Assembly: GCF_001050275.1 (NCBI RefSeq)
Contig: NZ_BBYA01000010.1
Span: forward strand, 62,001 to 126,000
DNA: 64,000 bases
Direction of reading: 5' to 3'
DNA from: Leptolinea tardivitalis
GTDB taxonomy: Bacteria; Chloroflexota; Anaerolineae; Anaerolineales; Anaerolineaceae
Shown: positions 36,689-53,083 of the stretch, in pieces
Numbering within the stretch: position 1 is the stretch's first letter
Layout of the letters: every line of letters starts with the position of its first letter
Notes under the pieces: model-generated
Database searches by the model: none
Told to the model about the DNA's origin: nothing
What the model saw: the letters and a program-made list of their open reading frames with translations, nothing else
Position numbers and translations under genes: made by a program

Positions 36689-36695
36689 TTTGACC

Positions 36696-37820
36696 ATGAA
36701 GATTGCCTGTATAACCCCTTCGGTGATTCCTTCCAATACAGCCAACAGCATCCAGGCCGTCAAGGCATCGCATGCCCTGGCATCTCTCGGGCATGAAGTT
36801 CGTGTATTCTTCCCGGGTGATAGTCAGGTAGTGTGGGATGATCTGGTTGATCTGTATGAGTTATCCTCTCGGTTTGACGTGACTTTCGTTGCATCCAACC
36901 CACGTTTAAAACGCTATGACTTCATCTGGAAAAGTGTACAACAGTCCCGGCACTGGCAGGCAGATCTGGTCTACACATGGCTGCCGCAGGCGGCCTGGCT
37001 GGCAGGAAAGAACGGCCTTCCCGCCGTGCTTGAACTGCACGACCGGTTAACCGGTTTTGCCGGCCCCCGTTTTTTTCGCTGGTTTCTGGGTTCAAAACAG
37101 AAAAAACGTGTACTGGTGATTACCCGTGCCCTTCAACAACGACTGGAAAAGCAGCTTCACGAATCCATTGACCCTGAGATCATCCGCATTGCGCCCAACG
37201 GGGTTGATCTGGAACGCTATCGCGACCTGCCGGATACAGCCATGGCTCGATCTATTCTCGATCTACCGGATAGATTCACCGCTGTCTATACCGGTCATTT
37301 TTATGCCGGGCGCGGAATGGATCTGCTGTTCGAGCTGGCCGGCCGCCTGCCGGATGTCACTTTCCTGTGGGTGGGAGGAAAACCCGAAGATACAGCCCGA
37401 TGGAAGACAAAAGTAGAGTCTGCCGGATTGAAGAATGTCATCCTCACCGGTTTCGTCCCCAAAATGCAACTTCCTCTGTATCAGGCTGCAGGCGACGTTT
37501 TGTTGATGCCCTACGAAAAAGCCATTGCCGGGAGCAGCGGAGGTAATTCCGCCGAGATTTGCAGCCCGATGAAAATGTTTGATTATCTGGCCACCGGCCG
37601 TGTCATTATGACCAGCGAACTGCCCGTGCTTCATGAAGTGTTGAATGTAAGCAACGCCATTTTTTGCCCTCCGGTAAATGTAGATTCCTGGGTGAAGACA
37701 ATACAAGAACTTCGGGCTGACCCTGAGGGTGCGGCCTTGCTTGCCAGACAGGCAAAACAAGATTCTATGCAGTATTCCTGGAAAAACCGGGCCAGACTGG
37801 CATTGGAAGGAATGGACTGA
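36696..37820 (+). CDS. Glycosyltransferase family 4
   Basis: 374 residues, GT-B fold. N-domain starts MKIACITPSVIPSNTANSIQAVKASHAL; the C-domain has IAPNGVDLERYRDL, FTAVYTGHFYAGRGMDLL and the sugar-nucleotide block with E-x-x-S-x-x-K-like (GGNSAEICSPMKMFDYLATG). ATG at 36696 is used rather than a TTG six bases upstream. Probably adds one sugar in building the repeat unit. Confidence 0.88.
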   Translation: MKIACITPSVIPSNTANSIQAVKASHALASLGHEVRVFFPGDSQVVWDDLVDLYELSSRFDVTFVASNPRLKRYDFIWKSVQQSRHWQADLVYTWLPQAAWLAGKNGLPAVLELHDRLTGFAGPRFFRWFLGSKQKKRVLVITRALQQRLEKQLHESIDPEIIRIAPNGVDLERYRDLPDTAMARSILDLPDRFTAVYTGHFYAGRGMDLLFELAGRLPDVTFLWVGGKPEDTARWKTKVESAGLKNVILTGFVPKMQLPLYQAAGDVLLMPYEKAIAGSSGGNSAEICSPMKMFDYLATGRVIMTSELPVLHEVLNVSNAIFCPPVNVDSWVKTIQELRADPEGAALLARQAKQDSMQYSWKNRARLALEGMD

Positions 37821-37828
37821 TCCATCAT

Positions 37829-39358
37829 ATGAAACAGAATCAATTATTAAAATTTGCTCTTATCTCTATTTTGGCGGGTGTTCTATTTGGCATCCTCGTT
37901 GCCCTGGTTTCTCCGGGTCCATTTATTAACAGTTTCTGGGGTTCTGCCCTCATTGCGGCATGTTCGGTATTTGGACTTCTCTCAGCCTGGAAATGGGCAG
38001 GAAGCACCCGAACATTGGCCTGGATAATGTCACTGGCGTATCTGTTGCGTATGCTTGTAGGGATTGGGATGTACACCTTGCTCCCCACCTTCGGATATGA
38101 CGAACCTACTCAGAATGCCGGGTATGTTTTTTATGATGCCGCACAGCGCGACCGACAATCATGGGAACTATCGCAGGCGCATCAAGTGATGGAAGCTGCT
38201 ACAGGGAAAGAATATGTGACAGACCAGTACGGCGGTCTGCTGGCATTCAGCGCGGCCGTGTATTCTGTGTTCAGTTCAGATGCTCACCGCCCGCTGTTCA
38301 TCGTTCTTTTCACTGCTTTCGCCGGCAGCATTGGCATTCCTTTCTTGTTTCTGGCATTGCGTAAACGTTTCGGGGATGCCCCAGCTTTGCTATCAGCCTG
38401 GATATTTGCCCTTTACCCCAGCAGTATTTTGCTGGGTGCCTCGCAAATGCGCGAACCCTTTATCCTGGGATTGGCGGCCATTGCCTTTTGGGCGGCAGCT
38501 ATGTGGAAATCGGCTGACCGGAAAAATGTTATCGCCGTCCTCATTGTCAGTCTGGGTGCCATGGCCTGGTTTTCCAGCCGGGTGGCACTTCCGATCATCG
38601 GAGTACTGGCTGTCTGGTTCTGGCTGGAGCATTATGTGGATGCACTTCCCGAAAAATGGCAGAAGATTTCCTGGGTCATTTTGATTGGAGCGGCGCTGGT
38701 ATTTGCCGTTTACGGATGGCGTTGGGTGGCCAGTACTTCCGTGTTTGATACCCGCATGACCGAATACAACAGTGGACGCATCCAGAAAGCCATTGAAGAA
38801 CTGGGGGTTGACCTGCGTATCCCCTTTATTGTTGGCTACGGTTTGACACAACCAGTCTTGCCCGCCGCCCTTACAGACCCGGCTTTGCCTATCTGGCGGG
38901 TGACCAGCAGCCTGCTGGCCGCCGGATGGTATGCCCTGGCTCCATTCATAGTCTACGCCTTGATCGCTCTCTGGCGTGAAAAAGACCCGATCCGCCGCCG
39001 TCTGCTGGCCTGGTCAACCCTGGCCTGTGTTGTGTGGGTGGTCATTTCATCCGCCCGGGCGGGTGGTGACCAGTGGGACAATCCGCGCTACCGCACCATC
39101 TTCCTCCCCTGGCTGGCGTTGATCGCGGCCTGGGGTTGGAACTTCGCCCGCCGCAACAAAGACGCCTGGCTGGGACGAATTCTCGTAGTGGAAGGGATCT
39201 TCCTGGTCTTTTTCATCTCATGGTATTTAAGCCGTTATTACAACCTCCTGAGCCGGATGCCATTCAACACAATGCTTTTGGTGATCATTCTCCTCTCGCT
39301 GGGTGTGTTAATCGGTGGCGCAGTGTGGGATTGGGTCAAGCGAAAACAAAAAGCCTGA
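37829..39358 (+). CDS. GT39-like polytopic glycosyltransferase
   Basis: 509 residues with about 11-12 helices. The first outer loop has GYDEPTQNAGYVFYDAA (acidic pair near residue 91), followed by ADQYGG-like VTDQYGGLLAFSAAVY and FALYPSSILLGASQMREPF, a pattern seen in bacterial dolichyl-phosphate-mannose-type transferases. It would use a polyprenyl-phosphate sugar outside the membrane. Last gene of the long train, nine bases before a strong terminator. Confidence 0.75.
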   Translation: MKQNQLLKFALISILAGVLFGILVALVSPGPFINSFWGSALIAACSVFGLLSAWKWAGSTRTLAWIMSLAYLLRMLVGIGMYTLLPTFGYDEPTQNAGYVFYDAAQRDRQSWELSQAHQVMEAATGKEYVTDQYGGLLAFSAAVYSVFSSDAHRPLFIVLFTAFAGSIGIPFLFLALRKRFGDAPALLSAWIFALYPSSILLGASQMREPFILGLAAIAFWAAAMWKSADRKNVIAVLIVSLGAMAWFSSRVALPIIGVLAVWFWLEHYVDALPEKWQKISWVILIGAALVFAVYGWRWVASTSVFDTRMTEYNSGRIQKAIEELGVDLRIPFIVGYGLTQPVLPAALTDPALPIWRVTSSLLAAGWYALAPFIVYALIALWREKDPIRRRLLAWSTLACVVWVVISSARAGGDQWDNPRYRTIFLPWLALIAAWGWNFARRNKDAWLGRILVVEGIFLVFFISWYLSRYYNLLSRMPFNTMLLVIILLSLGVLIGGAVWDWVKRKQKA

Positions 39359-39366
39359 GCAGTATT

Positions 39367-39394
39367 GAGCGGTCGGTTGACCGCTCTTTTTTTT
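39367..39394 (+). terminator. Strong intrinsic terminator ending the 29-39 kb gene train
   Basis: GAGCGGTC/GACCGCTC, eight pairs, four-base loop, eight T residues. Confidence 0.9.
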
Positions 39395-39469
39395 GAATAT
39401 CGAACGCCATATGGTATACCTTTGCCTCGAATGAACAGACAGTGGTGATGATAAAATACCCATCTATCT

Positions 39470-41311
39470 ATGAAACAATTCGCAAAGCATCATTCAATAC
39501 CCATCGTGGCAGCCGGTGCCGGGTTGCTGCTCTTTCTGGGGCAGGCGCTGGTCTATATTCACCAGCTTCCTTCCACATTGGATGAAGGTAATTATCTTTA
39601 TAAGGGTTTACTTTTCGTTACCGGGGTATTTCAACCGTTCCAACCATACGGGGTTTGGACGAACAAGATGCCCTTTGCCTTCCTTATTCCCGGCCTTGCC
39701 CAGGCAGTGTTTGGACCCGGGTTACTAACCGGCCGGATATTTGCTATCTTCCTCGGATTGATCACATTAATATCACTATGGTGGTTTGTTCGGCGGGAAG
39801 CCGGTGCATGGTGGGCAGCCGCAGCCGTTGCGGTGATCGCCATTAATCCGGGTGTGGTGCGCATGTATGCTCAGGCACTGTCAGAAGGTGTGGTGAGCTG
39901 CCTGTTAATGACAGCCATTGCGATTGGTGTAGGACGGGATCGCAAAATCTGGCAATTGATGACCTCCGGCCTGATTTTTGCTGCCAGCATTCTCACCCGT
40001 GAAAACATGCTCCCGGTATTTGGTTTCTATCTGATTTATATCATCATTGAACACGGCTGGAAAAAGGCTCTGCTGACAGCTGTCCCCGGCACAATCTTGC
40101 TGGTGTTAGTGCACATCCTCTACTGGCCAACCATTATGACGGTCATCTGGTCTTCCTGGATACCCCGTCAACTCACCCAACTTTTTCCCCAGCTTCCAGC
40201 CGCAACAGCCATCTGGGATCCAAACATCAATCTGGCCTCACGCATTTATTCCTTCTGGCAGGGAATACGCTTTCACTTTGCCATGATGTTCGGTCTGATC
40301 GTTCTGCTCCTCCTCTGGCCGGATGGCTCGGGCTGGCGGAAGACGTCCAGCTTTCGAACCGTGGTATTTCTGGCCGTAACCACCGTACTGATGGTCGCTG
40401 CCCACATGTATGCCGCCCTCTGGAAGGACTATTGCGTCTTTTGTTTCGGCCTGTACCTGAACTTTTTCAGCATTATCGGCGTAGCAATGGTAGCTGTATC
40501 TGCGCCATTTCTTCGGTTGAAAACATCCTGGTGGCAGCAGGCCCTTATCATCCTGCTTATTCTGTTCACCGGCACGGGCATCAGCTATGGCGCCTATCAG
40601 GAACTTGACGATACCCTGATGAGGTTGAGTATCCCGCGCATCAAGAATATGCAATTCCAGCCGGGTTCCACGGAACTCTGGCGGGCTTTGTCCAATAAAT
40701 TTGGATATTCCTACGACCAGCTTTCGCAAATCATTCCGACGGTGGCCGGTTTTGTTGTAACGGTTCTTTTCCTTCTGTTGACAGCAGCCGCCTTCCAATT
40801 CTGGAGAAAGAACCGCCCGAACATCTCATGGGGCGCATTCACCCTGCTTTCGTTCTTCCTTCTGGGGCTGTTGCTCAGTCCAACGGTTGTATTCGGGAAT
40901 CCACCCGAACCGGATTGCGGCGGTGACGTCATCGCCACCACCGAGGCAGCCGGCCGGCATCTGGCATCGCTGGTACCACCTGGCTCCAAAATCTACTGGG
41001 AAGGCGGATTATCGCCCGCCCCGCTTTTGTACATGAAAGACATCAACATTTACGGTCCGCAATTAAATGACGGGTATGCCTTTCGGCGCGGCGGTAATGC
41101 AGATGACCTGTTTCGCTATGGCTACTGGAATGAAGAACTCCAGAAAAAATGGTTGAATGAAGCGGATTACCTGTTTATCGTCGATTACGCCTATAAACAA
41201 GATTACAATACCGTGTTAGACTCGGAACACTTTGAAGAATTGCCGATGACGGAGTATATCGCCACCTGCCGAAGCAATTCCCGAATCCATACGTTCAAGC
41301 GAATTAAATGA
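39470..41311 (+). CDS. GT39-family-like membrane glycosyltransferase
   Basis: 613 residues, about 11 helices. LDEGNYLYKG (acidic pair about residues 36-37) is the catalytic-loop signature of GT39/ArnT-type enzymes. The C-terminal 130 residues form an outer domain with PEPDCGGDVIATTEAAGRHL and YWEGGLSPAPLLYMKD. TAAAAT lies 12 bases ahead of ATG, so the leader would be very short, and no Shine-Dalgarno is seen. Overlaps the GT2 gene downstream (ATGA). Confidence 0.8.
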   Translation: MKQFAKHHSIPIVAAGAGLLLFLGQALVYIHQLPSTLDEGNYLYKGLLFVTGVFQPFQPYGVWTNKMPFAFLIPGLAQAVFGPGLLTGRIFAIFLGLITLISLWWFVRREAGAWWAAAAVAVIAINPGVVRMYAQALSEGVVSCLLMTAIAIGVGRDRKIWQLMTSGLIFAASILTRENMLPVFGFYLIYIIIEHGWKKALLTAVPGTILLVLVHILYWPTIMTVIWSSWIPRQLTQLFPQLPAATAIWDPNINLASRIYSFWQGIRFHFAMMFGLIVLLLLWPDGSGWRKTSSFRTVVFLAVTTVLMVAAHMYAALWKDYCVFCFGLYLNFFSIIGVAMVAVSAPFLRLKTSWWQQALIILLILFTGTGISYGAYQELDDTLMRLSIPRIKNMQFQPGSTELWRALSNKFGYSYDQLSQIIPTVAGFVVTVLFLLLTAAAFQFWRKNRPNISWGAFTLLSFFLLGLLLSPTVVFGNPPEPDCGGDVIATTEAAGRHLASLVPPGSKIYWEGGLSPAPLLYMKDINIYGPQLNDGYAFRRGGNADDLFRYGYWNEELQKKWLNEADYLFIVDYAYKQDYNTVLDSEHFEELPMTEYIATCRSNSRIHTFKRIK

Positions 41312-42294
41312 AAATATCTGTAATTGTTCCTGTTTATAACGAAGAAGAAAATCTGCCGGTACTTAAAACCGTTCTCGATGACGTAATGAAATCTAATCAT
41401 TACGATTGGGAAGCGGTTCTGGTGGATGACGGCAGTAAAGACGGCAGCGCCGGCATTCTGGAATCATTCGTTACAGCAGATCCTGATCATTACCGCTGTG
41501 TGCTCCTGCGCCGCAACTTCGGTCAGACTGCCGCCATTGCCGCAGGAATTGACCATTCTGCTGGAGAGTTGATCGTGTTGTGCGATGCCGACATGCAAAA
41601 TGATCCCCGGGATATTCCTGCCATGATTGAGAAAATTGACCAGGGCTATGATGTGGTCAGCGGGTGGCGGCGTGACCGCAAGGATACCTTTATCACCCGC
41701 ACACTTCCTTCACACATTGCCAATGGACTGATCAGCTGGGTGACCGGAGTTCCGTTGCACGATTACGGCTGCACCCTCAAAGCCTATAAACGCGAGGTGA
41801 TCACCGGTTTCCGCCTGTATGGCGAAATGCACCGCTTTATCCCTGTGTATGCCAACTCTGTCGGTGCGCGCATTGCAGAAATGGAAGTTCACCATCACCC
41901 GCGTTTACATGGTAAAGCGAATTACGGCTTGGAACGGACGCTGAAGGTGATTCTCGATCTGGTGACAGTCAAGTTCCTGACCAGCTACGCCAACAAACCC
42001 ATCTATCTGTTTGGTGGTTCTGGTTTTGGGATGCTGGGATTAAGTGCGATTTCATTGTTATATATCATCATACGAAAAGTACAGTTTAACGAATCGTTGG
42101 TGCGATCACCTTTGCTGCTTCTCAGTGTCATGCTGTTTATTTTGGGAATGCAATCCATTCTGCTTGGTTTGATCGCTGAACTGTTGGCCCGCACATACCA
42201 TGAATCTCAGGCAAAACCGACCTATACCGTGCGGACTTTTCTGAACGGTTCATCAAACAACCATAATTCCTACAGTTTGCATCCGGGCGACTGA
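41308..42294 (+). CDS. GT2 polyprenyl-phosphate glycosyltransferase (DPM1/ArnC-like)
   Basis: 328 residues. GT-A domain: VIVPVYNEEENLPVL, EAVLVDDGSKDGSAG, LCDADMQNDPRDIPAM (DxD-type), and two C-terminal helices (about 235-255 and 268-292), as in enzymes that load a sugar onto undecaprenyl phosphate. It would supply the donor used by the GT39-type transferases next to it. Overlaps both neighbours (ATGA, TGATG). Confidence 0.9.
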   Translation: MKISVIVPVYNEEENLPVLKTVLDDVMKSNHYDWEAVLVDDGSKDGSAGILESFVTADPDHYRCVLLRRNFGQTAAIAAGIDHSAGELIVLCDADMQNDPRDIPAMIEKIDQGYDVVSGWRRDRKDTFITRTLPSHIANGLISWVTGVPLHDYGCTLKAYKREVITGFRLYGEMHRFIPVYANSVGARIAEMEVHHHPRLHGKANYGLERTLKVILDLVTVKFLTSYANKPIYLFGGSGFGMLGLSAISLLYIIIRKVQFNESLVRSPLLLLSVMLFILGMQSILLGLIAELLARTYHESQAKPTYTVRTFLNGSSNNHNSYSLHPGD

Positions 42295-43424
42295 TGCGCA
42301 TCCTCGTCCTCTGCCATGAATACCCGCCCATCGGCGGTGGCGGCGGCCGGGTTGCCCAGGATATCTGCACCGGGTTGGCCGTCCGGGGGCATGATGTACG
42401 ACTGGTGACAGCCGCTTTTGGCAGCCTGCCGGCGGAAGAGGTGCAAAACGGTGTGACGATTTACCGGCTGAAATCCGGCCGGAAACAGGAATTCCGCGCG
42501 CCTCTAGGTGCTATGGCCGGTTACCTGCTGGCCGGGCTGCCTTTCTGTCTTAACTTAATCCGCCGGTGGCGTCCTGACGTGATCCATGTGCATTTTGCTG
42601 TGCCAGCCGGGGCACTCGGGTTGGCATTGAAAATTCTTACCGGAGTGCCATATGTGATCACCGCCCATCTGGGAGACGTGCCGGGCGGAGTACCGGAAAA
42701 GACCGGTAAATGGTTCCAATTTATTTATCCCTTGACACCCCCCATCTGGCGAAAGGCGGCCGCCGTGTGCGCCGTCAGCAGTTTCACCAGTCATCTGGCG
42801 GAAGAAGCCTATCCCGGTATATCGCCTGTGGTCATTCCCAACGGGGTGGATACACATGACTACGATCCGGGTGAAATAACCGTAAATGATCCGCCGCAGG
42901 TTGTTTTTGCCGGTCGCTTTGTGCCGCAGAAGAACCCCCTGCAGGTGGTTTACGCGTTGAATGAGGTGAAAGACCTGCCGTGGACGTGTGTGATGGCAGG
43001 CGACGGCGCCCTGAAACCCGATGTGGAAGCACTGGTCAATTCACTCGGCCTGCGCAGCCGGTTTACCTTTCCCGGCTGGTTGACACCCACAGGTGTGAAA
43101 GACTGGTTTGCAAAAAGCGATATCCTTTTTCTGCCGTCGCTCTCTGAAGGACTGCCAGTGGTGGGCGTGCAGGGTATGGCCATGGGACTGGCTTTACTGC
43201 TCAGCCGTGCCGGGGGCAACCCTGACCTGGTAAATGCCCCGTCCAACGGGTATCTCTTTGACCCTGATGATACGGCCGGGTTTTCCTCCGCCCTGCGGGG
43301 CTGGCTGACTGATCGCGAAGTCCTGCAGCACACGCGTCTGGCCAGCCGGGAAGCAGCTGAAATCTTTTCGCTGGAACGCATTGTGGCAAAGTACGAAAAT
43401 GTGCTGATGAACGCTTCAAAGTAA
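42294..43424 (+). CDS. Glycosyltransferase family 4
   Basis: 376 residues. MRILVLCHEYPPIGGGGGRVAQDI is the classic GT4 start; VIPNGVDTHDYDPG, VVFAGRFVPQKNPLQVVYAL and FLPSLSEGLPVVGVQGMAMGL (E-x7-E region) are the C-domain blocks. It ends the GT39-GT2-GT4 group; no hairpin terminator is seen in the 100 bases that follow. Confidence 0.9.
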   Translation: MRILVLCHEYPPIGGGGGRVAQDICTGLAVRGHDVRLVTAAFGSLPAEEVQNGVTIYRLKSGRKQEFRAPLGAMAGYLLAGLPFCLNLIRRWRPDVIHVHFAVPAGALGLALKILTGVPYVITAHLGDVPGGVPEKTGKWFQFIYPLTPPIWRKAAAVCAVSSFTSHLAEEAYPGISPVVIPNGVDTHDYDPGEITVNDPPQVVFAGRFVPQKNPLQVVYALNEVKDLPWTCVMAGDGALKPDVEALVNSLGLRSRFTFPGWLTPTGVKDWFAKSDILFLPSLSEGLPVVGVQGMAMGLALLLSRAGGNPDLVNAPSNGYLFDPDDTAGFSSALRGWLTDREVLQHTRLASREAAEIFSLERIVAKYENVLMNASK

Positions 43425-43525: not shown

Positions 43526-46477
43526 ATGAAAATTTCAGCGATTTTTTCGCTGTTAATTCTTTTGGCGTCCATGGGGGAATATCCATACGCAATGCAAACT
43601 GGATTGCTTGCAGATGAAATTGTTTATTCTCAAAATTTCAATTCCGATTCTGCCGATGAATGGCGGTTGCAAGAAGGCTGGGCCATTGTTCCATCAGAGA
43701 ATGGCAAAGCCCTGTATGGAAGCGGCCATGTTTGGGCAGATTTGATTGGTAAAACCTGGGATGATTATTACCTGCAATTTCGGATGAATTCGCAGAGCTC
43801 CGCCGTGATGCACGCCAATATCCGCCTGTTGGGAACCGTTCGCTATTTTATTGGACTGAGTCGTAATCAATCGTATCTCTCCCGGCAGGATGACCAAAAT
43901 ACCATCCATGATGGATTGGCAACGGGACGAGGAATTGGCTCTGGTTGGCATCTAATACGCATCACTGTTGTTGGAGGCAGGATTGAGGTCTTATGTGACA
44001 ACCGCAGATTGTTTGTATATACCGATCCGAATCCCCTGACATCCGGTGGAGTAGCCTTTGAAAACCTTACAGAAGCTGCAACACTTGTGGATGATGTGAT
44101 CGTCGGTATACCCACCCAGGCCATCACCACTGCTGCTTCTGCCGGGAAAACCGTAGTAGCTCCTCCCAACACCCTTAAGTGGATAAATACGGGTGGCCCA
44201 TTAGGTGGACTTGGCTATGATATCCGTATGAGCCCCGAAAACCCGGATGTAATGTATGTGACTGATGCCAAAGCTGGCGTTTTCAAAAGCATCGACGGTG
44301 GTCATACCTGGAAAGCCATAAATAAAGGTATTTCCATTCGTGCCGGTGAAACCGGTGATCAGATCCCCATTTTTTGCCTTACGATCTCTCCAACCAATCC
44401 TGATTTAATCTGGGCAGGTACAACCGGACAGCGTGGTGCATTCAAATCCACAGATGCCGGGGAAACCTGGCATAAGATGGACAATGGAATCAGATTTCCA
44501 ACCCTGACTTTGCGCGGGTTTGCCATTGATCCAGGAGATAATAATATTGTTTACACAGCCGGCGAACTTTCTTCTTGGGAGTGGAGTGGTTCTGAACAAT
44601 TCGGCGGAAAATTCGATAAAGTAAAAGGCGTAGTGTATAAAACAACAAACGGTGGTCAACTTTGGAAAGAAATCTGGAGAGGCAACAATCTGGGTCGTTA
44701 TATATTAATTGATCCTCGTAATTCAAACGTCCTGTACCTTTCAACTGGCATTTTCGATCGCGAAGCTGCTGATTCTGACTTCAAGACCGGGAAACAGGGG
44801 GGTGAAGGCATCTTAAAAAGCACAGATGGCGGGCAAACCTGGCACGCTATTAATAATGGTCTAAAGAACTTGTATGTTGGATCGCTGGTTATGCATCCCA
44901 CAAATCCGGATATTCTGCTGGCAGGTGTTGGAAATAATACCTTCACGGAAGGTTCGGGAGTGTATATAACCAAAAATGGAGGGGAAAGTTGGACGCAGAC
45001 ACTGCAGCTATACGCTGTGACATCTGTGGAGATTTCTGCTGCCAACCCGAATCGAGCGTATGCCGGAAATTTTACAGAGTTCTACCGTAGTGATGACGGT
45101 GGGATGAATTGGATACAAGTTAATAAAGCCAGTGAAGGATGGGGGCCACCCGGTTTATTGGGTGGACAACCTATTGACTTCCAGGCAGATCCACGTGATC
45201 CTGACCGATTGTTTGCCAATGCGTATGGTGGTGGAAATTTCATAACAGAAGATGCCGGTCGTACCTGGAAGGATACATCCAACGGCTATACCGGTTCTAT
45301 GATTCGCGATATCGCCGTAGACCCCACATCCCCCGGACATGTATATGCAGTTGGACGAAGCGGATTCTTCGAAAGTCGTAACGGGGGCAGCAATTGGGAC
45401 ACTCCCAACCGAAGTTTCCGCAATAATGATTACCATGTAATCGCTCTAAATCCATCAAACCCATCCCAGCTTGTTGCCGAATTGAATTGTGGCCGTGCAC
45501 TGTTGTATTCTCCTGATGGTGGACGCACCTTCACGCAAACCTATAGCTCGCCAGAAGATAATTTTGCATGGCGGACTTTAGCCTTTGCACCATCAGACCC
45601 TTCTGTTGTGTATGCCGGAGGAATCGGATACCAATCCTGTGGGATTTCAGAACCGCAATTTGAGGCCAAAGGGTTTCTTAGATCTACTGACGGTGGCCTT
45701 TCATGGGCTGATGCCAATGATGCCATTACGAAAAATGCCGTTGTAATGCAGATTGCCATCCACCCGAACAAACCTCTGACGGCATATGCTGCCACGTTTA
45801 ACCACGGCCTTTTACAGACAACTGATGGAGGAAAAACCTGGACCAACCCGGGCAAGGAGTTTTCGTCATCCACCAGATTAACAGCCGTTGAAATTTCTCC
45901 CGCAGATCCATCTGTTATTTTTGCGGCAAAATACCACGCTGGATTGTGGGTGAGCACTGATGCCGGGATCAACTGGAAACGCAGCAGCAACGGTTTGATC
46001 TCTGAAGCATTTCTAACGGATATTGTATTCGACCCCATCCAACCACAGGTTATGTATGTCTCTGATTTATTCAGTGGTGTATATCGTTCCGTTGATGGAG
46101 GAAAAAACTGGAAGGTGATCAATACTGGTCTGCTAAACCGGGCAGTAAATAAAATGTCTTTATCCAGCGACGGCCTTCATCTGTATGCTGCAACAGAAGG
46201 AATGGGTGTCTTCCGTCTTGACCTGAATAACCAACCTCCTGCTTCCATTCCGGAACGCACGGATGATGTTTCGATCGAATCCTCTGGAACACAGAATTCT
46301 GATACTCCAATCCAGTCAGATTCATCGGCAGTCCTGGAACAATCAACAGAAAATAATGCGCCCTCAACTCATAAAAAAGTGGACGTTAATGATCTGTTTG
46401 CCGGATGTTCTACCATCCCTGCTGTTATGATCTTTACAATTCCTCTGGTAAAAAATAAAAGGAAACATCATCCATAA
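43526..46477 (+). CDS. Large secreted Asp-box (BNR/VPS10-like) repeat protein
   Basis: 983 residues. Signal peptide (1-23), a jelly-roll/LamG-like domain (about 30-195), then two beta-propellers with 13 Asp-box-like repeats by my count, e.g. SIDGGHTWKAI, STDAGETWHKM, STDGGQTWHAI, SVDGGKNWKVI. A Ser/Thr linker (about 910-950) leads to a C-terminal hydrophobic segment (IPAVMIFTIPLV) and a KNKRKHH tail, a likely membrane anchor. Such proteins resemble sortilin/VPS10 or glycosidases, but repeat alone does not show sialidase activity. GAGG lies 16 bases before ATG. Nine bases separate it from the cytochrome gene, so the two may be co-transcribed. Confidence 0.85.
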   Translation: MKISAIFSLLILLASMGEYPYAMQTGLLADEIVYSQNFNSDSADEWRLQEGWAIVPSENGKALYGSGHVWADLIGKTWDDYYLQFRMNSQSSAVMHANIRLLGTVRYFIGLSRNQSYLSRQDDQNTIHDGLATGRGIGSGWHLIRITVVGGRIEVLCDNRRLFVYTDPNPLTSGGVAFENLTEAATLVDDVIVGIPTQAITTAASAGKTVVAPPNTLKWINTGGPLGGLGYDIRMSPENPDVMYVTDAKAGVFKSIDGGHTWKAINKGISIRAGETGDQIPIFCLTISPTNPDLIWAGTTGQRGAFKSTDAGETWHKMDNGIRFPTLTLRGFAIDPGDNNIVYTAGELSSWEWSGSEQFGGKFDKVKGVVYKTTNGGQLWKEIWRGNNLGRYILIDPRNSNVLYLSTGIFDREAADSDFKTGKQGGEGILKSTDGGQTWHAINNGLKNLYVGSLVMHPTNPDILLAGVGNNTFTEGSGVYITKNGGESWTQTLQLYAVTSVEISAANPNRAYAGNFTEFYRSDDGGMNWIQVNKASEGWGPPGLLGGQPIDFQADPRDPDRLFANAYGGGNFITEDAGRTWKDTSNGYTGSMIRDIAVDPTSPGHVYAVGRSGFFESRNGGSNWDTPNRSFRNNDYHVIALNPSNPSQLVAELNCGRALLYSPDGGRTFTQTYSSPEDNFAWRTLAFAPSDPSVVYAGGIGYQSCGISEPQFEAKGFLRSTDGGLSWADANDAITKNAVVMQIAIHPNKPLTAYAATFNHGLLQTTDGGKTWTNPGKEFSSSTRLTAVEISPADPSVIFAAKYHAGLWVSTDAGINWKRSSNGLISEAFLTDIVFDPIQPQVMYVSDLFSGVYRSVDGGKNWKVINTGLLNRAVNKMSLSSDGLHLYAATEGMGVFRLDLNNQPPASIPERTDDVSIESSGTQNSDTPIQSDSSAVLEQSTENNAPSTHKKVDVNDLFAGCSTIPAVMIFTIPLVKNKRKHHP

Positions 46478-46485
46478 GGCTGTTT

Positions 46486-48186
46486 ATGAAACCATGCCCT
46501 TTCATCCTGATCATTGCAGGTAGTCTCCTGGTTCTTGGTGCTATCACGTCTCATTCCAGGGATAAAGACAAGGCCATTCAGACTCCTACCACCACCCCAT
46601 ATATCGGTTATGTGGTGGATGAAAGCGGGAAGCCAGTGGAAGGCGCCACAGTACGCATTCAAACGGAAAAAGGATCTACCACAACAAACCTTGACGGCAG
46701 CTTCATCCTTTTTTCCCACACAGACAAACAACCCGTAACTATCTCTGCCTGGAAGGAAGGTTATTACTGTTCTTCTCAGGAAAATGTAGAGGCTGGACAG
46801 GTACTTCCACGGCTTGTATTGAGGAAATATCAGATAACGGATAATCCGGAGTATGCCTGGGTTCCGCCTGAAGGGACCAACTCCTGTTATTCCTGCAAGC
46901 CGACCGTTACACAGGTCTGGTTGAACAATGACGCTCATGGAAAATCGGCAAAAAATCCGCGTTTTCTCACTATGTATTACGGAACCAACCTTTCCGGTCA
47001 GACCAGCCCGTTAACACGCTATGTCACCACCCAGGATTATGGAAGGATGCCGCTGCCGCCGGACACCTCCAGACCATATTACGGACCCGGATTTAAGCTC
47101 GATTTCCCTGAATCAAACGGGAATTGCAGTACCTGCCACATCCCTGGAGCGGCATTGGCCGACGCTTATGGTGTTGATCCCAACTCTGTCACAGGAGTGG
47201 ATACGTATGGCATCCATTGTGATTTCTGCCACAAAATAGCCGACACATCCGTTAAAGAAAATAGCCTGCCTGATCCGGGGATGCCCGGCGTACTCTCACT
47301 GGATATTCGCCGGCCGTTTCCGGACGATAAAGATAGATATCAGCTATTTTTTGGCACATTTGATGATGACAATGTTCCAAAAGAAGATACAAAACTCCCA
47401 CTACTGTCTGAGAGCCGCTACTGTGCCTCCTGCCATTATGGTGTGTTCTGGGATACGCAAATATACAACTCATACGGTGAATGGCTGGCCAGTTCATACA
47501 GTAACCCGGTGACCGGCCGCACCTGTCAGCAGTGCCACATGCCGTCACCCACTATCTTGAACGGCATCACAATAACCAATGTGGCCGAAGGAAAAGGTGG
47601 AGTTAACCGCGATCCAGACAGCATACATGCCCATACATTCCCCGGGGCGGCCAGCCAGGAACTGTTGCAGAATGCATTAACCCTTACTACATCTGCCCGT
47701 CGAATGGAAAATAATAACGCCATCCGGGTGGATGTACGGCTCTATAACGATCGTACAGGGCATCACATTCCTACCGATTCACCTTTGAGGCAAATGATCT
47801 TGCTTGTCAGGGCATATAATTCCTCCGGACAACCGTTAACGTTGATTCAGGGTGACACCCTGCCTGATTGGACCGGTGTGGGCAATCCAGAAGACGGATA
47901 TTATGCCGGATTACCCGGCAAGGGCTATGCGAAGATATTATCCGAACTCTGGACGGGAATCAGTCCGACCGGTGCTTATTGGAATCCGACTCGTCTGGAA
48001 AGCGATACCCGTCTGCCCGCGCTGACCAGTGATGACAGCACATACCTGTTCTCTGCTTCCCCATCATCCCCGGTGACGGTGGATGTGCAGGTATGGTTCC
48101 GTCGGGCATACAGATCATTGGCTGACCTGAAAGGTTGGAAAGACCCCGATATCTTAATGGAATCTTCCCGGATGATCGTGAAGTAA
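46486..48186 (+). CDS. Secreted five-haem cytochrome c with a CxxCK site
   Basis: 566 residues. N-terminal signal/anchor (5-20), a carboxypeptidase-regulatory-like beta sandwich (about 38-112, GYVVDESGKPVEGATVRI), then five haem motifs: Cys134-Tyr-Ser-Cys-Lys138 (Lys instead of His), Cys214-218 CSTCH, Cys245-249 CDFCH, Cys313-317 CASCH, Cys347-351 CQQCH. Distal His candidates include HAHTFPGA (about 380) and TGHHIP (about 424). A Lys-ligated haem is a hallmark of NrfA nitrite reductases, though overall length and order differ. Possible role in extracellular electron transfer or detoxification; the reaction is not known. Confidence 0.85.
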   Translation: MKPCPFILIIAGSLLVLGAITSHSRDKDKAIQTPTTTPYIGYVVDESGKPVEGATVRIQTEKGSTTTNLDGSFILFSHTDKQPVTISAWKEGYYCSSQENVEAGQVLPRLVLRKYQITDNPEYAWVPPEGTNSCYSCKPTVTQVWLNNDAHGKSAKNPRFLTMYYGTNLSGQTSPLTRYVTTQDYGRMPLPPDTSRPYYGPGFKLDFPESNGNCSTCHIPGAALADAYGVDPNSVTGVDTYGIHCDFCHKIADTSVKENSLPDPGMPGVLSLDIRRPFPDDKDRYQLFFGTFDDDNVPKEDTKLPLLSESRYCASCHYGVFWDTQIYNSYGEWLASSYSNPVTGRTCQQCHMPSPTILNGITITNVAEGKGGVNRDPDSIHAHTFPGAASQELLQNALTLTTSARRMENNNAIRVDVRLYNDRTGHHIPTDSPLRQMILLVRAYNSSGQPLTLIQGDTLPDWTGVGNPEDGYYAGLPGKGYAKILSELWTGISPTGAYWNPTRLESDTRLPALTSDDSTYLFSASPSSPVTVDVQVWFRRAYRSLADLKGWKDPDILMESSRMIVK

Positions 48187-48207: not shown

Positions 48208-48279
48208 GGGCCCGTAGCTCAGCGGCAGAGCACGGGGCTCATAACCTCTTGGTCGCTGGTTCGAATCCAGCCGGGCCCA
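48208..48279 (+). tRNA. tRNA-Met (CAT anticodon)
   Basis: Acceptor GGGCCCG pairs with CGGGCCC, D arm GCTC/GAGC, anticodon loop CTCATAA, T arm GCTGG/CCAGC with TTCGAAT, discriminator A; 72 bases, CCA not encoded. Anticodon-stem pair 27-43 is C-T mismatched. CAT could be elongator Met or Ile (lysidine-modified); it is not an initiator type because the acceptor starts with a G-C pair. TATAAT lies 13 bases upstream. Confidence 0.93.
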
Positions 48280-48310
48280 CTGATTATTGGTAGCGGGGAA
48301 ATGAATGCAC

Positions 48311-48347
48311 GATGCGGTCAAAATCGAGCTCATCCTACGAGCTGGTA
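48311..48347 (+). repeat. Copy A of a short dispersed repeat
   Basis: Matches copy B (48476-48512) at 30 of 37 bases by eye: shared core GATGCG-TCAAA--CGAGC then CATCCTAC. Lies 32 bases after the tRNA. Its hairpin arms have decayed. The gap 48280-48772 has no supported gene; besides these repeats I see nothing in it. Confidence 0.55.
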
Positions 48348-48470
48348 AAACGCGTGACAGATTGGCCGTGGTCAAGTTTTCACCGGTATGTGAGGATGGG
48401 AGTGTATTCTGAGGATTGGGGTGGTCAGGTGGATGGTGCCTTCATGGATATGCCAGAGGGAGAATAATTT

Positions 48471-48512
48471 GTAGGGATGCGCTCAAAGGCGAGCACATCC
48501 TACAGGCTGATA
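48471..48512 (+). repeat. Copy B of the short dispersed repeat, hairpin intact
   Basis: GTAGGGATGCGCTC pairs with GAGCACATCCTAC across AAAGGC (one bulge, one G-U). The core is shared with copy A 165 bases upstream, suggesting a small palindromic mobile repeat (REP/MITE-like). Confidence 0.55.
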
Positions 48513-48772: not shown

Positions 48773-50620
48773 ATGAATAGATTGGGGAAGATAAGTTTAT
48801 CCAGGTCAATGATCTTTGGATTGTTATTTATTATCTTCAATTTTGCTTTCATTATCTCCCCTTACTGGCTTCTGCCGGAATTACCCATAGGTAAATTTAC
48901 CGTACTTGTAGTTACCATTATCTCGGGGATAATTTGGGCCAACTATTCGACAGGCAGGTTACAACTTCAATATAGCATCAAATCATTTGCCGGTCTTGTA
49001 ATTTTGCTCAGTGTAATATTTGCGATAAATCTTGGTCCTTTATCATCCAGTATTCCCTGGCGGGGTGATGAGGATTTTCATATCGCTAATGTGCTGGCAT
49101 TAATTAATGATCTGCAGCCTTACGTTTCGATTTTTGTTTTGGCTGGTTTCGTAGTTTTTCTTTACCTGTTAGCAAAAAATAAGGGATTGGCGTTTATTTG
49201 GTACTCATTGATTATGCTGGTTATCTTCTGGGCTTTAGCTGTTATACGAATTCTGCCTTTGGGGAATCCGGTTTTCTTCCCTCGTTATCCATATTTTACA
49301 TATTGGATAACGGCCATTTTGTTAAAAATTCCTTCCATTATATTCACCCCTTTTCATGAAGAATTTTATCGGTTAGTCCCTCTCCTGTTCACCGGGATAA
49401 TTATCTGGCTGTTTATCCGGGTTTCTTTCAAAGAGATTTCCGTTCCTTCTTTCCTGGCAGGAATCGGTGTGACAACAATACCGCTTGTCTTTTACTACTC
49501 CTCAATTTTCTACCTTGAGCTTCCAGCCGTTTGTTTAATGTTTGTAGTATGCCTTCGAATAGATCATCTTCTTCATAGTGATTTTAACGAAATCAGAAAT
49601 GATCCTGCGTGGTATGCATTACTTCTTCTCGGGTTTATAAAAGAAACGACCCTTCCATTTCTCATTGTATTTGTAATTTTTCGGTTTGCCATCCTATTTC
49701 TTAAGTTGAAAAAAAGTGGACAAAACAATTTCGATGAAAAACAGCAGCCGGAACCCAATCCTCTGAAGAGGATATATGCTGTTTTGGGTCAGGAAGTTAT
49801 CATCAGTTTACTTGTGTTATTTCCCGCCGTGCTTTACCTGATCTTTCGCAGTTCATTGGCTGAGATTTCCAGGGGCTATATTCCCGCCGGGAATAATTTG
49901 TTGCATCTATCAACATATAAAGTAATTATTCGATCGTTACTTGAACAGTTTGGGCCTTTTCTGGTCATCTTTCTTGCCGGCTGTATTTTGTTAATTCGAC
50001 AGAAAGACTATATAAAAGTCTGTTTTTTCCTGTCCAGTATCGTTATCTTCCTCATATTTTTCACCGCTGATGATTGGAAATTCATCGGGTATAGCCGATT
50101 TAACCTTCTGATACTGCCTGAAATCCTTGCCTGTAGCATTGCTGTATTTCATCGTTTGAAAGATCAAAAAATCCTCGGTCCAGTTTTGTCAATATTGATC
50201 CTGGCTGTAAATTTATGGATCTCTCCCGTTAATTCAGATGGCACCAAAAAACCATTTTGGGGAAACTACAATTACGACACATCGGAACATTATTATCCGT
50301 ACGAAGAAACACTCCAATGGATCAAGGATAGTGATATTCATGGGTCAATATTATTCACAGGTTTATATTATCCATATTATTTTGAATTCTATTTTCATAA
50401 GTTGAATTGGTTCCCCGTATATAAAGTCATCGAATCTGAGGAAAACCGCAACGAAAAAAGAGATATTTTAAAAATGCTGACCATTGGGAAGGAAGAGAAT
50501 TACACCTTCGTTATTTACCATATCCTCGGGAAAGATATTCCAACTATTGAGAAGGATACAGGATATGAGCATATGCAGGAAATCTGCAATATGGCTCATT
50601 GCTTGCTGGTATTTTATTAA
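48773..50620 (+). CDS. GT39-like membrane protein, AT-rich
   Basis: 615 residues, about 12 helices. WRGDEDFHIANVLALIND (acidic group about residues 97-100) marks the GT-C catalytic loop. The base composition is clearly more AT-rich than the glycan genes before the tRNA. A soluble C-terminal part of about 110 residues (HYYPYEETLQWIKDSD) fits outer-face GT-C domains. TATAAAA lies about 40 bases upstream and the ribosome site is weak. No partner genes adjacent. Possibly acquired by transfer. Confidence 0.65.
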   Translation: MNRLGKISLSRSMIFGLLFIIFNFAFIISPYWLLPELPIGKFTVLVVTIISGIIWANYSTGRLQLQYSIKSFAGLVILLSVIFAINLGPLSSSIPWRGDEDFHIANVLALINDLQPYVSIFVLAGFVVFLYLLAKNKGLAFIWYSLIMLVIFWALAVIRILPLGNPVFFPRYPYFTYWITAILLKIPSIIFTPFHEEFYRLVPLLFTGIIIWLFIRVSFKEISVPSFLAGIGVTTIPLVFYYSSIFYLELPAVCLMFVVCLRIDHLLHSDFNEIRNDPAWYALLLLGFIKETTLPFLIVFVIFRFAILFLKLKKSGQNNFDEKQQPEPNPLKRIYAVLGQEVIISLLVLFPAVLYLIFRSSLAEISRGYIPAGNNLLHLSTYKVIIRSLLEQFGPFLVIFLAGCILLIRQKDYIKVCFFLSSIVIFLIFFTADDWKFIGYSRFNLLILPEILACSIAVFHRLKDQKILGPVLSILILAVNLWISPVNSDGTKKPFWGNYNYDTSEHYYPYEETLQWIKDSDIHGSILFTGLYYPYYFEFYFHKLNWFPVYKVIESEENRNEKRDILKMLTIGKEENYTFVIYHILGKDIPTIEKDTGYEHMQEICNMAHCLLVFY

Positions 50621-50925
50621 ATTGAAATCCTTAATTTACATATACTTGAAGGATTGATTGTTAATCCACTATTTTGTACAAAGTTCGACCTGATTACCGG
50701 GATGAACATACTAGCACATATATTTATTGCGAATCTGGCAACACAAAATCATCGTTTAATACATGCCCGGTATTTTTCATATTAAATTTCAAAAAATGTT
50801 CCATTAGAATGAGAAAAATACTTGTCATCAGTAGACAAAATAGTATCCTATCTCCAAACATCTCGGATTCTGATTTAAAACCAACCAGACCTATTGATTA
50901 ACAGTAGTGGATTAAGAGACATATT
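50621..50925. other. Gene-free AT-rich gap
   Basis: About 300 bases with no frame that has a ribosome site or a recognisable protein. I see no hairpin terminator and no repeat in it. Confidence 0.6.
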
Positions 50926-50954
50926 CTGACCAGTCGTCAATTCTCATCTATAAT
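50926..50954 (+). promoter_or_regulatory. Promoter for a leaderless GTG-start gene
   Basis: CTGACC (four of six to TTGACA), 17-base spacer, TATAAT; the GTG start follows after six bases. No Shine-Dalgarno. Confidence 0.6.
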
Positions 50955-50960
50955 AAGGCC

Positions 50961-51698
50961 GTGACTTTCCTTCCCCCTGTATCATCTTTCGACCGGAAAA
51001 GTCCGGCTTCTACCCGATTAACATTTGGTCTGTTCTTCCTGATGTGTACGCTTGCCGGGATCCTTTCTCTATCGGCGGTCATCAACCTGCCTCCGTCTGA
51101 ATCAAAATCTGCCGTCATTGCGTCGTTTTCCCCGTGGCGCATCTTCACCTGGGGATTCCTTGGCTTGGGAACACTTATTTCACTTGGTTTGTTTATTAAA
51201 TCTCAGGTCACACCAGACTGGTCAACCCGGGTGGAAACCATAATCCATACCTGGCATAAGACTCATTCATTTCTCTCCTCGGCGTATTTCTGCCTGTCGC
51301 TGGCTTTGATTCTCCTGCTGGGCGGTTTGGATTACCTGATGGATGTGCAGCGTTTTCCGCGCATGGCCTATTACATTTTTCTTTATGTACGCCTGCGCCC
51401 GATATGTTTATGGTTGATGGCAGTGACGATCATATCCCTGATTTTGACGTTTACCTACAGATGGCTGACACTTTCGTTGCGCGATTTTCTACCCTCCAAC
51501 CGGGCTTCTCGGGCAGGTGCATACTGTCTGTTGGTTGTGTTTGCTGGCACCCTGGTGATGTGGGTGAACCTTTTACGTGATCCGATATTTTTCGAAGATA
51601 AGAGCAGCCTCTGGCTGCCTATGATTTTCATCTCCATCCCAGTTTTATTTATAGGTCTATTTCTCATTGACCGTCAGGGGAAATCAAAGACGGAATGA
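50961..51698 (+). CDS. Membrane protein of unknown function
   Basis: 245 residues with six hydrophobic helices (two near 22-42 and 62-82, two near 110-130 and 145-165, two near 190-240). Start is GTG at 50961, placed right behind a -10 box, so the mRNA is probably leaderless. The end overlaps the next gene as ATGA, and both probably work together. I recognise no family; layout resembles the small partner of a polytopic glycosyltransferase. Confidence 0.65.
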   Translation: MTFLPPVSSFDRKSPASTRLTFGLFFLMCTLAGILSLSAVINLPPSESKSAVIASFSPWRIFTWGFLGLGTLISLGLFIKSQVTPDWSTRVETIIHTWHKTHSFLSSAYFCLSLALILLLGGLDYLMDVQRFPRMAYYIFLYVRLRPICLWLMAVTIISLILTFTYRWLTLSLRDFLPSNRASRAGAYCLLVVFAGTLVMWVNLLRDPIFFEDKSSLWLPMIFISIPVLFIGLFLIDRQGKSKTE

Positions 51699-53083
51699 AT
51701 AAAAATTCAAATATATCCATAAGTAATCTGATTGAAGCCGCCGTTTATTACGGCTTTTTTTTGCTGCTGGTAGCCCTGTCCATATACTCCAGTTTTTTTG
51801 TGAAAGCGCTGCCTGATCCGAATAATCTCAACAATGCCACCATCCAACAGGTGATTTTCGGTTTTGCATTCAACCGCCTGCAGCGCATTCCGGCCCAGAT
51901 ACTCATCGTTTCCGGATTAGCCATCCTCATCGGAATGGCCGCCCTGTGGAATAATCGACGTGATCAGGAACTGTACCGGCGGTTTGCCAGTTTGAATAAC
52001 CGGTTCTTTTCAAAGAAAATATACATAATTGCCCTGTGCCTGGTCTTTTTTACCGCCTGCTGCCTGTTGCAAAGCAATATGGTGTCAGCCGATATGGTGA
52101 TATACAAAAGCTGGATTCCCCGACAGTTCATGCGCGGCATCATGCACGTCCGTTTTGACGAGATGTGGGAATCCAACCTTCACTTCAATGCATACATCCT
52201 GCTTCATACCTTTTTGGGGACAGATGTGCTGGCCAGCTACCGCCTGCTTTCCTGCCTGGCAGCACCATTCTTCCTGTATATCCTGTTGATTTTCAGCCGA
52301 CGGCTAGTGCCGGATAAAGCCCTGTCATTGAGTATGTTCATTATGTCTGGCGGATTTGTTCAGCTCTTTTTTGGTGATATGGAGTACTACACCATCACCA
52401 TCACCCTGGTGATGGCCTATTTCTATCTGGCATACGCCTTTCTACAAGAAGAAACGTCTTTTGTTACCCCGGCCATGATGCTGGCATTGGCCATGACCTT
52501 CCATATGGAGACATTCTACCTTCTTCCCACACTCTTCTTCTTGTCCATTGTTGCGATTCAAAGACGGGATGGTTTTGAGGTCATCTGTGGTTGGTTTGGC
52601 CTGTTTATACTGGTCAGCCTGACTCTGATGTTCTTCGTCAATAATGGCAATCCCCTTAATAACATGGTGGATACCAGCTGGGGTCTGGGCCGGAACGGCA
52701 ATGTGCTGGCCAACTTTCTGACCAATACGCCGCTTCTGTTTATCGCCCGCTTAAACATGGTCACCCTGGTTTTTCCAGCCATTTGGCTGCTGGTACCTCT
52801 GCTGGGATTTTCGCGCATCAAGCTGGATCCGTTCAACGGTTTCCTGCTGACCGGCGCCTGCTGCGGGATTCCCTTTTCACTGGTCTGGGTATCATCTATT
52901 GGCCTGTACAGCGATTGGAATTTATTTTCCATGCCGCTGTTTCCGGCCATCTTACTGGTAGGGTACAATCTGATCGGTCACACTCATTTTTCTCGCAAAA
53001 CCGCATTACTTTACGGCCTGACCGCATTTTCATCACTGATCAGTTATGGATGGATCGTATCCAATCATTTCATCGGGCGGTGA
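51695..53083 (+). CDS. Polytopic membrane protein, possible glycosyltransferase
   Basis: 462 residues, about 11 helices. Around residue 130-165 KSWIPRQFMRGIMHVRFDEMWESNLHF is a charged outer loop, and FGDMEYYTITITLVMAYFYLAY follows; placement resembles GT-C enzymes, but I cannot point to a sure catalytic motif. Co-translated with the upstream membrane protein (ATGA overlap). No substrate can be given. Confidence 0.6.
   Translation: MNKNSNISISNLIEAAVYYGFFLLLVALSIYSSFFVKALPDPNNLNNATIQQVIFGFAFNRLQRIPAQILIVSGLAILIGMAALWNNRRDQELYRRFASLNNRFFSKKIYIIALCLVFFTACCLLQSNMVSADMVIYKSWIPRQFMRGIMHVRFDEMWESNLHFNAYILLHTFLGTDVLASYRLLSCLAAPFFLYILLIFSRRLVPDKALSLSMFIMSGGFVQLFFGDMEYYTITITLVMAYFYLAYAFLQEETSFVTPAMMLALAMTFHMETFYLLPTLFFLSIVAIQRRDGFEVICGWFGLFILVSLTLMFFVNNGNPLNNMVDTSWGLGRNGNVLANFLTNTPLLFIARLNMVTLVFPAIWLLVPLLGFSRIKLDPFNGFLLTGACCGIPFSLVWVSSIGLYSDWNLFSMPLFPAILLVGYNLIGHTHFSRKTALLYGLTAFSSLISYGWIVSNHFIGR

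Follow-up and report, generated by a model that had tools for sequence, protein, structure and literature searches.

The window, i.e. the whole stretch of 64,000 nt of Leptolinea tardivitalis DNA that was analysed, contains an intact reading frame on the forward strand at 46486..48186 (the end coordinate includes the stop codon). It encodes a protein of 566 aa, which was assigned as a pentahaem-type c cytochrome on the basis of the reading frame, its motifs, and the nearest solved relative, 5ze8. The gene directly upstream (43526..46477, forward strand) encodes a BNR/sortilin-type beta-propeller without a haem motif (PF15902, E 2e-42; BNR, 6.7e-17), and only 8 bases separate its stop codon from the cytochrome gene. 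A tRNA-Met lies directly downstream of the cytochrome (48208-48280). Two similar short intergenic stretches of the form gatgcg-tcaaa...atcctac were seen by eye within 48300-48510 (at about 48309 and 48472), and the flanking regions, 36690-43424 and 48773-53083, appear by inspection to contain glycosyltransferase and polytopic membrane protein genes. Inspection of the window revealed no recognisable respiratory partner gene next to the cytochrome.

The protein is composed of an N-terminal domain, a core with five haem motifs, and a C-terminal sandwich domain (all on the forward strand), the last two as in 5ze8. By inspection, the N-terminus resembles a signal peptide, and a lipobox-like LTGC was seen in the same way at the N-termini of the homologues L002 and L003. 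The window protein is apparently exported and is probably located at the cell surface. An earlier interpretation made from the letters alone (the sequence-only reading) had proposed a carboxypeptidase-regulatory domain at the N-terminus, and aa 41-105 (46606..46800) indeed match the transthyretin-like beta-sandwich CarboxypepD_reg (PF13620) with an E value of 3.8e-9 and 37.2 bits, above the cut-off of 32.3. In the homologue L010, the predicted structure matches carboxypeptidase transthyretin-like domains with Z scores of up to 12.5. Within this domain, row counts by motif state identified Cys95 (46768..46770) as a Lys-linked residue (see below).

The five motifs named in the sequence-only reading were all recovered, starting at aa 134, 214, 245, 313, and 347. 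They are CYSCK (aa 134-138, 46885..46899), CSTCH (aa 214-218, 47125..47139), CDFCH (aa 245-249, 47218..47232), CASCH (aa 313-317, 47422..47436), and CQQCH, the last within the sequence CQxCHM (aa 347-351, 47524..47538). Three further elements were defined with the alignment, i.e. an acidic loop at aa 293-302 (47362..47391) with a Lys-specific Asp-Asn insert at 295-296, the HAH segment at aa 364-383 (47575..47634) with the Lys-linked His381 and the invariant His383, and the C-terminal beta-sandwich domain at about aa 391-566 (47656..48183) with the invariant His426. The last domain has confidently predicted strands in both available AlphaFold models, those of the window protein (mean pLDDT 62.2) and of L010 (67.9), and the L010 model aligns with 5ze8 to the C-terminus. 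The haem core has low confidence in both models, partly <50 in that of L010. Only three non-motif histidines are kept nearly throughout the 93 aligned homologues described below, namely His151 (90/93), His383 (93/93), and His426 (93/93), and therefore five bis-His haems appear improbable as a family rule.

For remote comparisons, we used a profile of 26 sequences, including the window protein and excluding L006 and L011. The best match was the penta-haem cytochrome c552 of Thermochromatium tepidum (5ze8; E 1.9e-26, profile positions 127-419), which was also the best fold match of the L010 model (Foldseek E 1.4e-13; Z 18.4 and rmsd 4.5 over 298 residues). The order of the five haem motifs is shared by both proteins, and so is, as far as the models show, a beta-sandwich after them. 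In contrast, all five motifs of 5ze8 are CxxCH, the first aligning as CANCH at the place of CYSCK, and the match does not include any CarboxypepD_reg part. The alignments and models thus characterise the window protein as a variant among the 5ze8-like pentahaem cytochromes rather than as a plain member. The multihaem cytochrome c selenoprotein MccSep (9wt8) was matched with an E value of 1.6e-11 from the haem region into the C-terminal domain, but its first motif aligns as CIECH. The match to the ExtKL family NF040886 (E 1.8e-7) reached 30.1 bits vs. a cut-off of 250, and is thus below membership. Two further comparisons come from excerpts of published work: octahaem nitrite reductases carry CxxCK as well (PMC12285233, PMC10716430), but have eight haems instead of five motifs, and OcwA, which acts as a surface reductase and has open haems, contains nine haems, none of the open ones being of the CxxCK type (PMC6703420). 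NrfA, HAO, c554, and OcwA are absent among the 50 VIA fold matches listed, which excludes nothing.

The window protein was compared with the nitrite reductase NrfA. The two proteins share the pentahaem composition, the Lys motif at the first position, and, in the case of E. coli NrfA, the form CxSCK of this motif. In NrfA of E. coli K-12 the motifs start at 122 (CWSCK), 160, 209, 282, and 314, and the claim that a leading Lys motif sets the window protein apart from NrfA was thus mistaken. The claimed difference in spacing was upheld (80-31-68-34 in the window protein vs. 38-49-73-32 in E. coli NrfA), and so was the proposal of a pentahaem protein outside NrfA, in agreement with 5ze8 as the best relative. 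The window protein has no match to PF02335 (NrfA) at E<=1, and hhalign aligned only 26 columns with E. coli NrfA, so that membership in NrfA was rejected. These 26 columns pair the haem-5 segment of the window protein with the haem-4 segment in NrfA. Lys138 may reside on a haem other than the catalytic one of NrfA, and if this is the case, the Lys would be convergent with that of NrfA. NrfA has a catalytic Arg, Tyr, and His in addition to a calcium site. Neither a PF02335 protein nor a NapC/NrfH family protein was found in the L. tardivitalis genome, and among the 11 entries (10 genomes) with a Lys protein, a single one (G663) has a PF02335 protein, encoded by a separate gene. NrfA contains three long helices after the haems, according to excerpts of PMC6703420 and PMC10135655, whereas both models of the present family predict high-confidence strands after haem 5.

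The literature on CxxCK, of which excerpts were consulted, describes the catalytic haem of NrfA as five-coordinate, CxxCK-bound, and ligated by Lys (PMC12285233, PMC8840924), and reports that the Lys matters for the activities of NrfA and octahaem enzymes (PMC8840924). Some NrfA proteins have CxxCH instead (PMC12285233, PMC8840924, PMC6976685, PMC3769277, PMC12142623, PMC10135655, PMC10716430). In the excerpts examined, a set that lay outside most subscription journals, no natural CxxCK haem was found in a named protein other than NrfA and the octahaem nitrite reductases. Two genome scans for CxxCK name no further family in the parts consulted (PMC8351635, PMC7901989), and the same is true for two papers that mention CxxCK (PMC4429474, PMC9012536).

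To assess the distribution of the Lys motif, homologues were collected. A first search yielded 27 loci. At E<=1e-20, a match was found in 7 of 400 genomes of the phylum, including that of L. tardivitalis, and in none of the nine other genomes listed for the same family; a profile search yielded matches in 66 of 298 genomes of the class. Among viral contigs, one scan found no relative. Since a tRNA-Met adjoins the gene and the gene was not found in the nine other genomes listed for the family, acquisition of the cytochrome by transfer is possible. The collection comprised 96 rows, with L050 and L068 excluded as copies of the window protein and L035, respectively, and a G473 fragment not included. 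Removal of three rows without the CQxCHM anchor (L071, L101, and L103, in which the first motif ends in His) left 93 aligned rows, so that the count for motif 5 refers to a set selected beforehand for this anchor. L077, L083, L086, L099, and L100 have additional CxxCH motifs beyond the C-terminal domain, and L011 has a fused N-terminal part with more motifs.

Motifs 2-5 are CxxCH in 93/93 rows, and both Cys residues of motif 1 are also present in all of them. In contrast, the last residue of motif 1 is His in 72, Lys in 11, and Met in 10 rows. The outcome in which all homologues have CxxCH, raised in the sequence-only reading, was thus not seen. The Lys rows represent 10 distinct proteins, because L010 and L047 are one gene reached twice (L012 and L049 are also identical), and all of them have CxSCK. 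Apart from the window protein, they comprise five proteins with Chloroflexi, Anaerolineae, or Anaerolineales titles (L004, L005, L007, L009, L010), two more from the same phylum (L033, L048), and L002 and L003 with Armatimonadetes and Spirochaetes titles, respectively. The latter two come from metagenome-assembled genomes, in which their contigs measure 7 and 13 kb, and therefore these phylum labels may be wrong. The recurrence of the same Lys in 11 of 93 rows indicates that it is conserved and not a product of decay. All 10 Met rows have CxHCM (L034, L035, L057, L059, L060, L062, L063, L070, L077, L100), in which Met may be the proximal ligand of a c-type haem.

The alignment was searched for positions that vary together with the state of motif 1. 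Ser136 and Gln116 are present in 11/11 Lys rows and in none of the 82 others, and the Asp295-Asn296 insert of all Lys rows corresponds to a gap in 82/82 others. Cys95 is found in 11/11 Lys, 0/10 Met, and 1/72 His rows, the exception being L110, a far row that is misaligned at this place. His244 is also present in all Lys rows. His381 was considered a strictly Lys-linked residue in the first 34 rows (9/9 Lys, 1/25 others), but this was weakened in the wider set, in which it occurs in 11/11 Lys rows and also in 23/82 others. The Met rows have marks of their own, i.e. His136 (10/10, vs. 5/83 in others) and Arg300-Val301 (10/10, vs. 14/83 and 6/83, respectively). Due to the Asp295-Asn296 and Arg300-Val301 marks, the state of motif 1 goes together with the loop at 295-302 in both the Lys and the Met forms. 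The CxxCH protein L008 (9149-10873), which is found inside a group of Lys proteins (see below), has Ser95, Lys136, His138, and Arg381 and lacks the Asp-Asn insert; it resembles a natural revertant.

A tree was calculated from 92 rows, omitting the motif columns and the fragment L098. The Lys proteins fell into two groups: group A contains the window protein, L002, L003, L033, and L048, with L008 inside, and group B contains L004, L005, L007, L009, and L010/L047. The Met rows fell into three groups, and the best tree requires six changes among the His, Lys, and Met states. L008 has a long branch and its placement is thus less sure. A single origin of Lys was rejected for the whole length when the Lys rows and L008 were constrained together (p-AU 0.0023, 92 rows), for the core 139-390 with the Lys rows alone (p-AU 0.0146, 63 rows), for the C-terminus with the Lys rows alone (p-AU 8.8e-6, 63 rows), and for 200-390 without L008 (p-AU 0.0335, 62 rows). 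The N-terminal part 40-133 is compatible with a single origin (p-AU 0.47). This distribution may stem from convergence, recombination, or repeated loss.

The two Lys groups were also compared by segment over 40-133, 139-165, and 200-560. Groups A and B have identities to one another of 0.60 (81-117), 0.58 (118-133), and 0.71 (both 291-312 and 363-390), while their identities to their own His and Met kin in 81-133, 291-312, and 363-390 range from 0.26 to 0.53. A weaker excess was found for 40-80 and 233-290, and in 139-165, 200-232, 313-362, and 391-560 each group is level with or nearer to its own kin. We read this likeness as separated patches, as might be expected for residues that meet in space, and recombination or shared ancestry may account for part of it. 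The Lys-specific residues would then form a dedicated pocket at haem 1. For Cys95, a sign test with independent tree pairs gave the same direction in 3 of 3 cases, a number that cannot reach the 0.05 level.

The neighbouring genes were compared among the loci. All four group A Lys loci for which upstream DNA is available (the window, L002, L042 for L033, and L111 for L048) have the BNR propeller gene immediately upstream of the cytochrome, and the L003 contig begins at the cytochrome gene. A BNR-like gene is also found near the CxxCH member L006 and the CxHCM member L044 (for L035). In group B, a large protein frame of about 1,150-1,340 aa is located upstream in L004, L007, L009, and L010, but not in L005, and a large protein of this kind also adjoins the CxxCH members L013 and L014. 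A two-motif protein is added in L007, L009, L010, L013, and L014; that of L007 matches models of lactonase-type propellers and di-haem peroxidases. Partner genes follow lineage more than ligand.

The sequence-only reading had raised two questions about haem maturation, i.e. whether the genome has a cytochrome c maturation system and whether it has a special lyase for CxxCK. The first was answered in the affirmative: the L. tardivitalis genome contains one System I operon with a CcmF of 687 aa, a CcmC-sized protein (both PF01578), and CcmH (PF03918), and the remaining ccm genes were assigned by inspection. A protein with two CxxCH motifs (by inspection) is encoded inside this operon, between CcmH/CcmG-like and CcmA-like genes (L041:4450-6330). 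For the special lyase, the search was negative. Neither a second CcmF nor an NrfE-like protein, nor any further PF01578 match at E<=0.001, was found in the genome, and ResB had no match in it; ResB matches are present in 6 of the 11 Lys-genome entries, the L. tardivitalis genome excepted. In a CcmF alignment, no column separates seven Lys genomes from 11 other genomes (L127 was omitted because it had no sequence). PF01578 matches were compared in 29 entries, in which G435 and G665 are one genome present twice. None of the Lys genomes has two matching frames of at least 600 aa, and G660 and G664 have none at all. Two or more such frames were found in G192 and G586 (Met) and G436 (His).

In excerpts from the literature, CxxCK is stated to require a separate maturation system (PMC7096707). 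NrfEFG serves in E. coli and NrfI in W. succinogenes (the literature set cited above for NrfA with CxxCH). In S. oneidensis, CcmF with CcmI probably serves CxxCK without NrfEFG (PMC12285233, PMC6976685), and thus a lyase of the NrfEFG/NrfI type is not a strict mark of NrfA. Ccm did not mature variants of cytochrome b562 that had been engineered to carry CxxCK or CxxCM (PMC4158909, which was also the single relevant paper found on CxxCM as a haem motif).

The reading that we favour, tentatively and at less than even chances, is that of an exported, probably surface-located cytochrome of the c552 (5ze8) kind in which haem 1 is a specialised reactive site. Haem 1 would be attached via Cys134 and Cys137 by an ordinary System I with a single CcmF, and Lys138 would ligate it on the proximal side. 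It would be surrounded and specialised by Cys95, the loop at 293-302, and perhaps His381, all facing it, and haems 2-5 would relay electrons to it. The most likely task would be the reduction of small inorganic nitrogen or sulfur species, the substrate being guessed, and the protein would work like NrfA without being a member of this family. Support comes from Ser136, Cys95, and Asp295-Asn296, which go with Lys in 11/11 rows and not with the 82 others, save the misaligned L110. Further support is given by the likeness of groups A and B in separated segments, by the lack of this residue set in L008, by the Met marks in the same loop, by the small number of conserved non-motif histidines, and by the Lys-ligated catalytic haem of NrfA as a precedent. 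Against it stand the poor haem core in both models, the small number of independent events (three pairs), the occurrence of His381 in non-Lys rows, the pairing of haem 5 with NrfA haem 4, the lack of a recognised respiratory partner gene, and the neighbour genes shared by the Lys, His, and Met forms, so that a change of ligand does not have to imply a change of task. The attachment of haem 1 is the weakest step, because Ccm failed on the engineered motifs and the search for a CxxCK lyase was negative in this genome.

Such a shared neighbourhood would fit an unaltered overall task, and haem 1 could accordingly be an electron-transfer haem in all members, with His, Lys, or Met tuning its potential and with His381, His244, or Cys95, for example, as distal ligand (Lys/His or Lys/Cys). 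This is somewhat doubtful but has a real chance of being correct: His244 and His381 are present in all Lys rows, and in 5ze8, the nearest relative, the corresponding motif ends in His. However, the residue set that goes with Lys comprises several patches and is absent in L008, which is more than tuning seems to need. It is rather unlikely that haem 1 is not attached at all in the Lys (and Met) members, and that Cys95, Cys134, Cys137, and perhaps His381 instead form a metal or thiol site in a four-haem protein. The appearance of Cys95 exactly with Lys, the lack of a second CcmF-sized protein in the L. tardivitalis genome, and the failure of Ccm with the engineered cytochrome b562 speak for such a site, but both motif Cys residues and the exact CxSCK are kept in 11/11 Lys rows, the Met rows lack Cys95 and yet retain both Cys, and in S. 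oneidensis CxxCK may receive its haem through CcmF with CcmI. A divergent NrfA nitrite reductase is highly improbable. The leading CxSCK motif, as CWSCK in E. coli, and the short match between the haem-5 and NrfA haem-4 segments would fit; the missing PF02335 match, the predicted beta-sandwich instead of a three-helix bundle after the haems, the His and Met relatives at the same place, and the separate PF02335 gene of the Lys genome G663 argue against it. Decay or an assembly error as the source of Lys has a negligible chance and nothing in its favour, as the same Lys is present in 10 distinct proteins of two groups together with its linked residues.

In a wider sense, it is possible, but less than probable, that the family contains a catalytic CxxCK haem of a second, separate origin outside the line of NrfA and the octahaem enzymes, with natural ligand switching between His, Lys, and Met, with a Lys pocket that recruits a Cys from the CarboxypepD_reg domain, and with maturation without a dedicated lyase. 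The comparisons indicate structured and conserved variation in a known kind of pentahaem cytochrome, for which a catalytic role is plausible. Natural His, Lys, and Met forms at one haem, together with the nested CxxCH protein L008, would make the effect of the proximal ligand readable from nature. The family would also test whether a plain System I with one CcmF can supply haem to CxxCK and CxxCM motifs that occur naturally, given that the engineered ones failed in the published experiment (PMC4158909).
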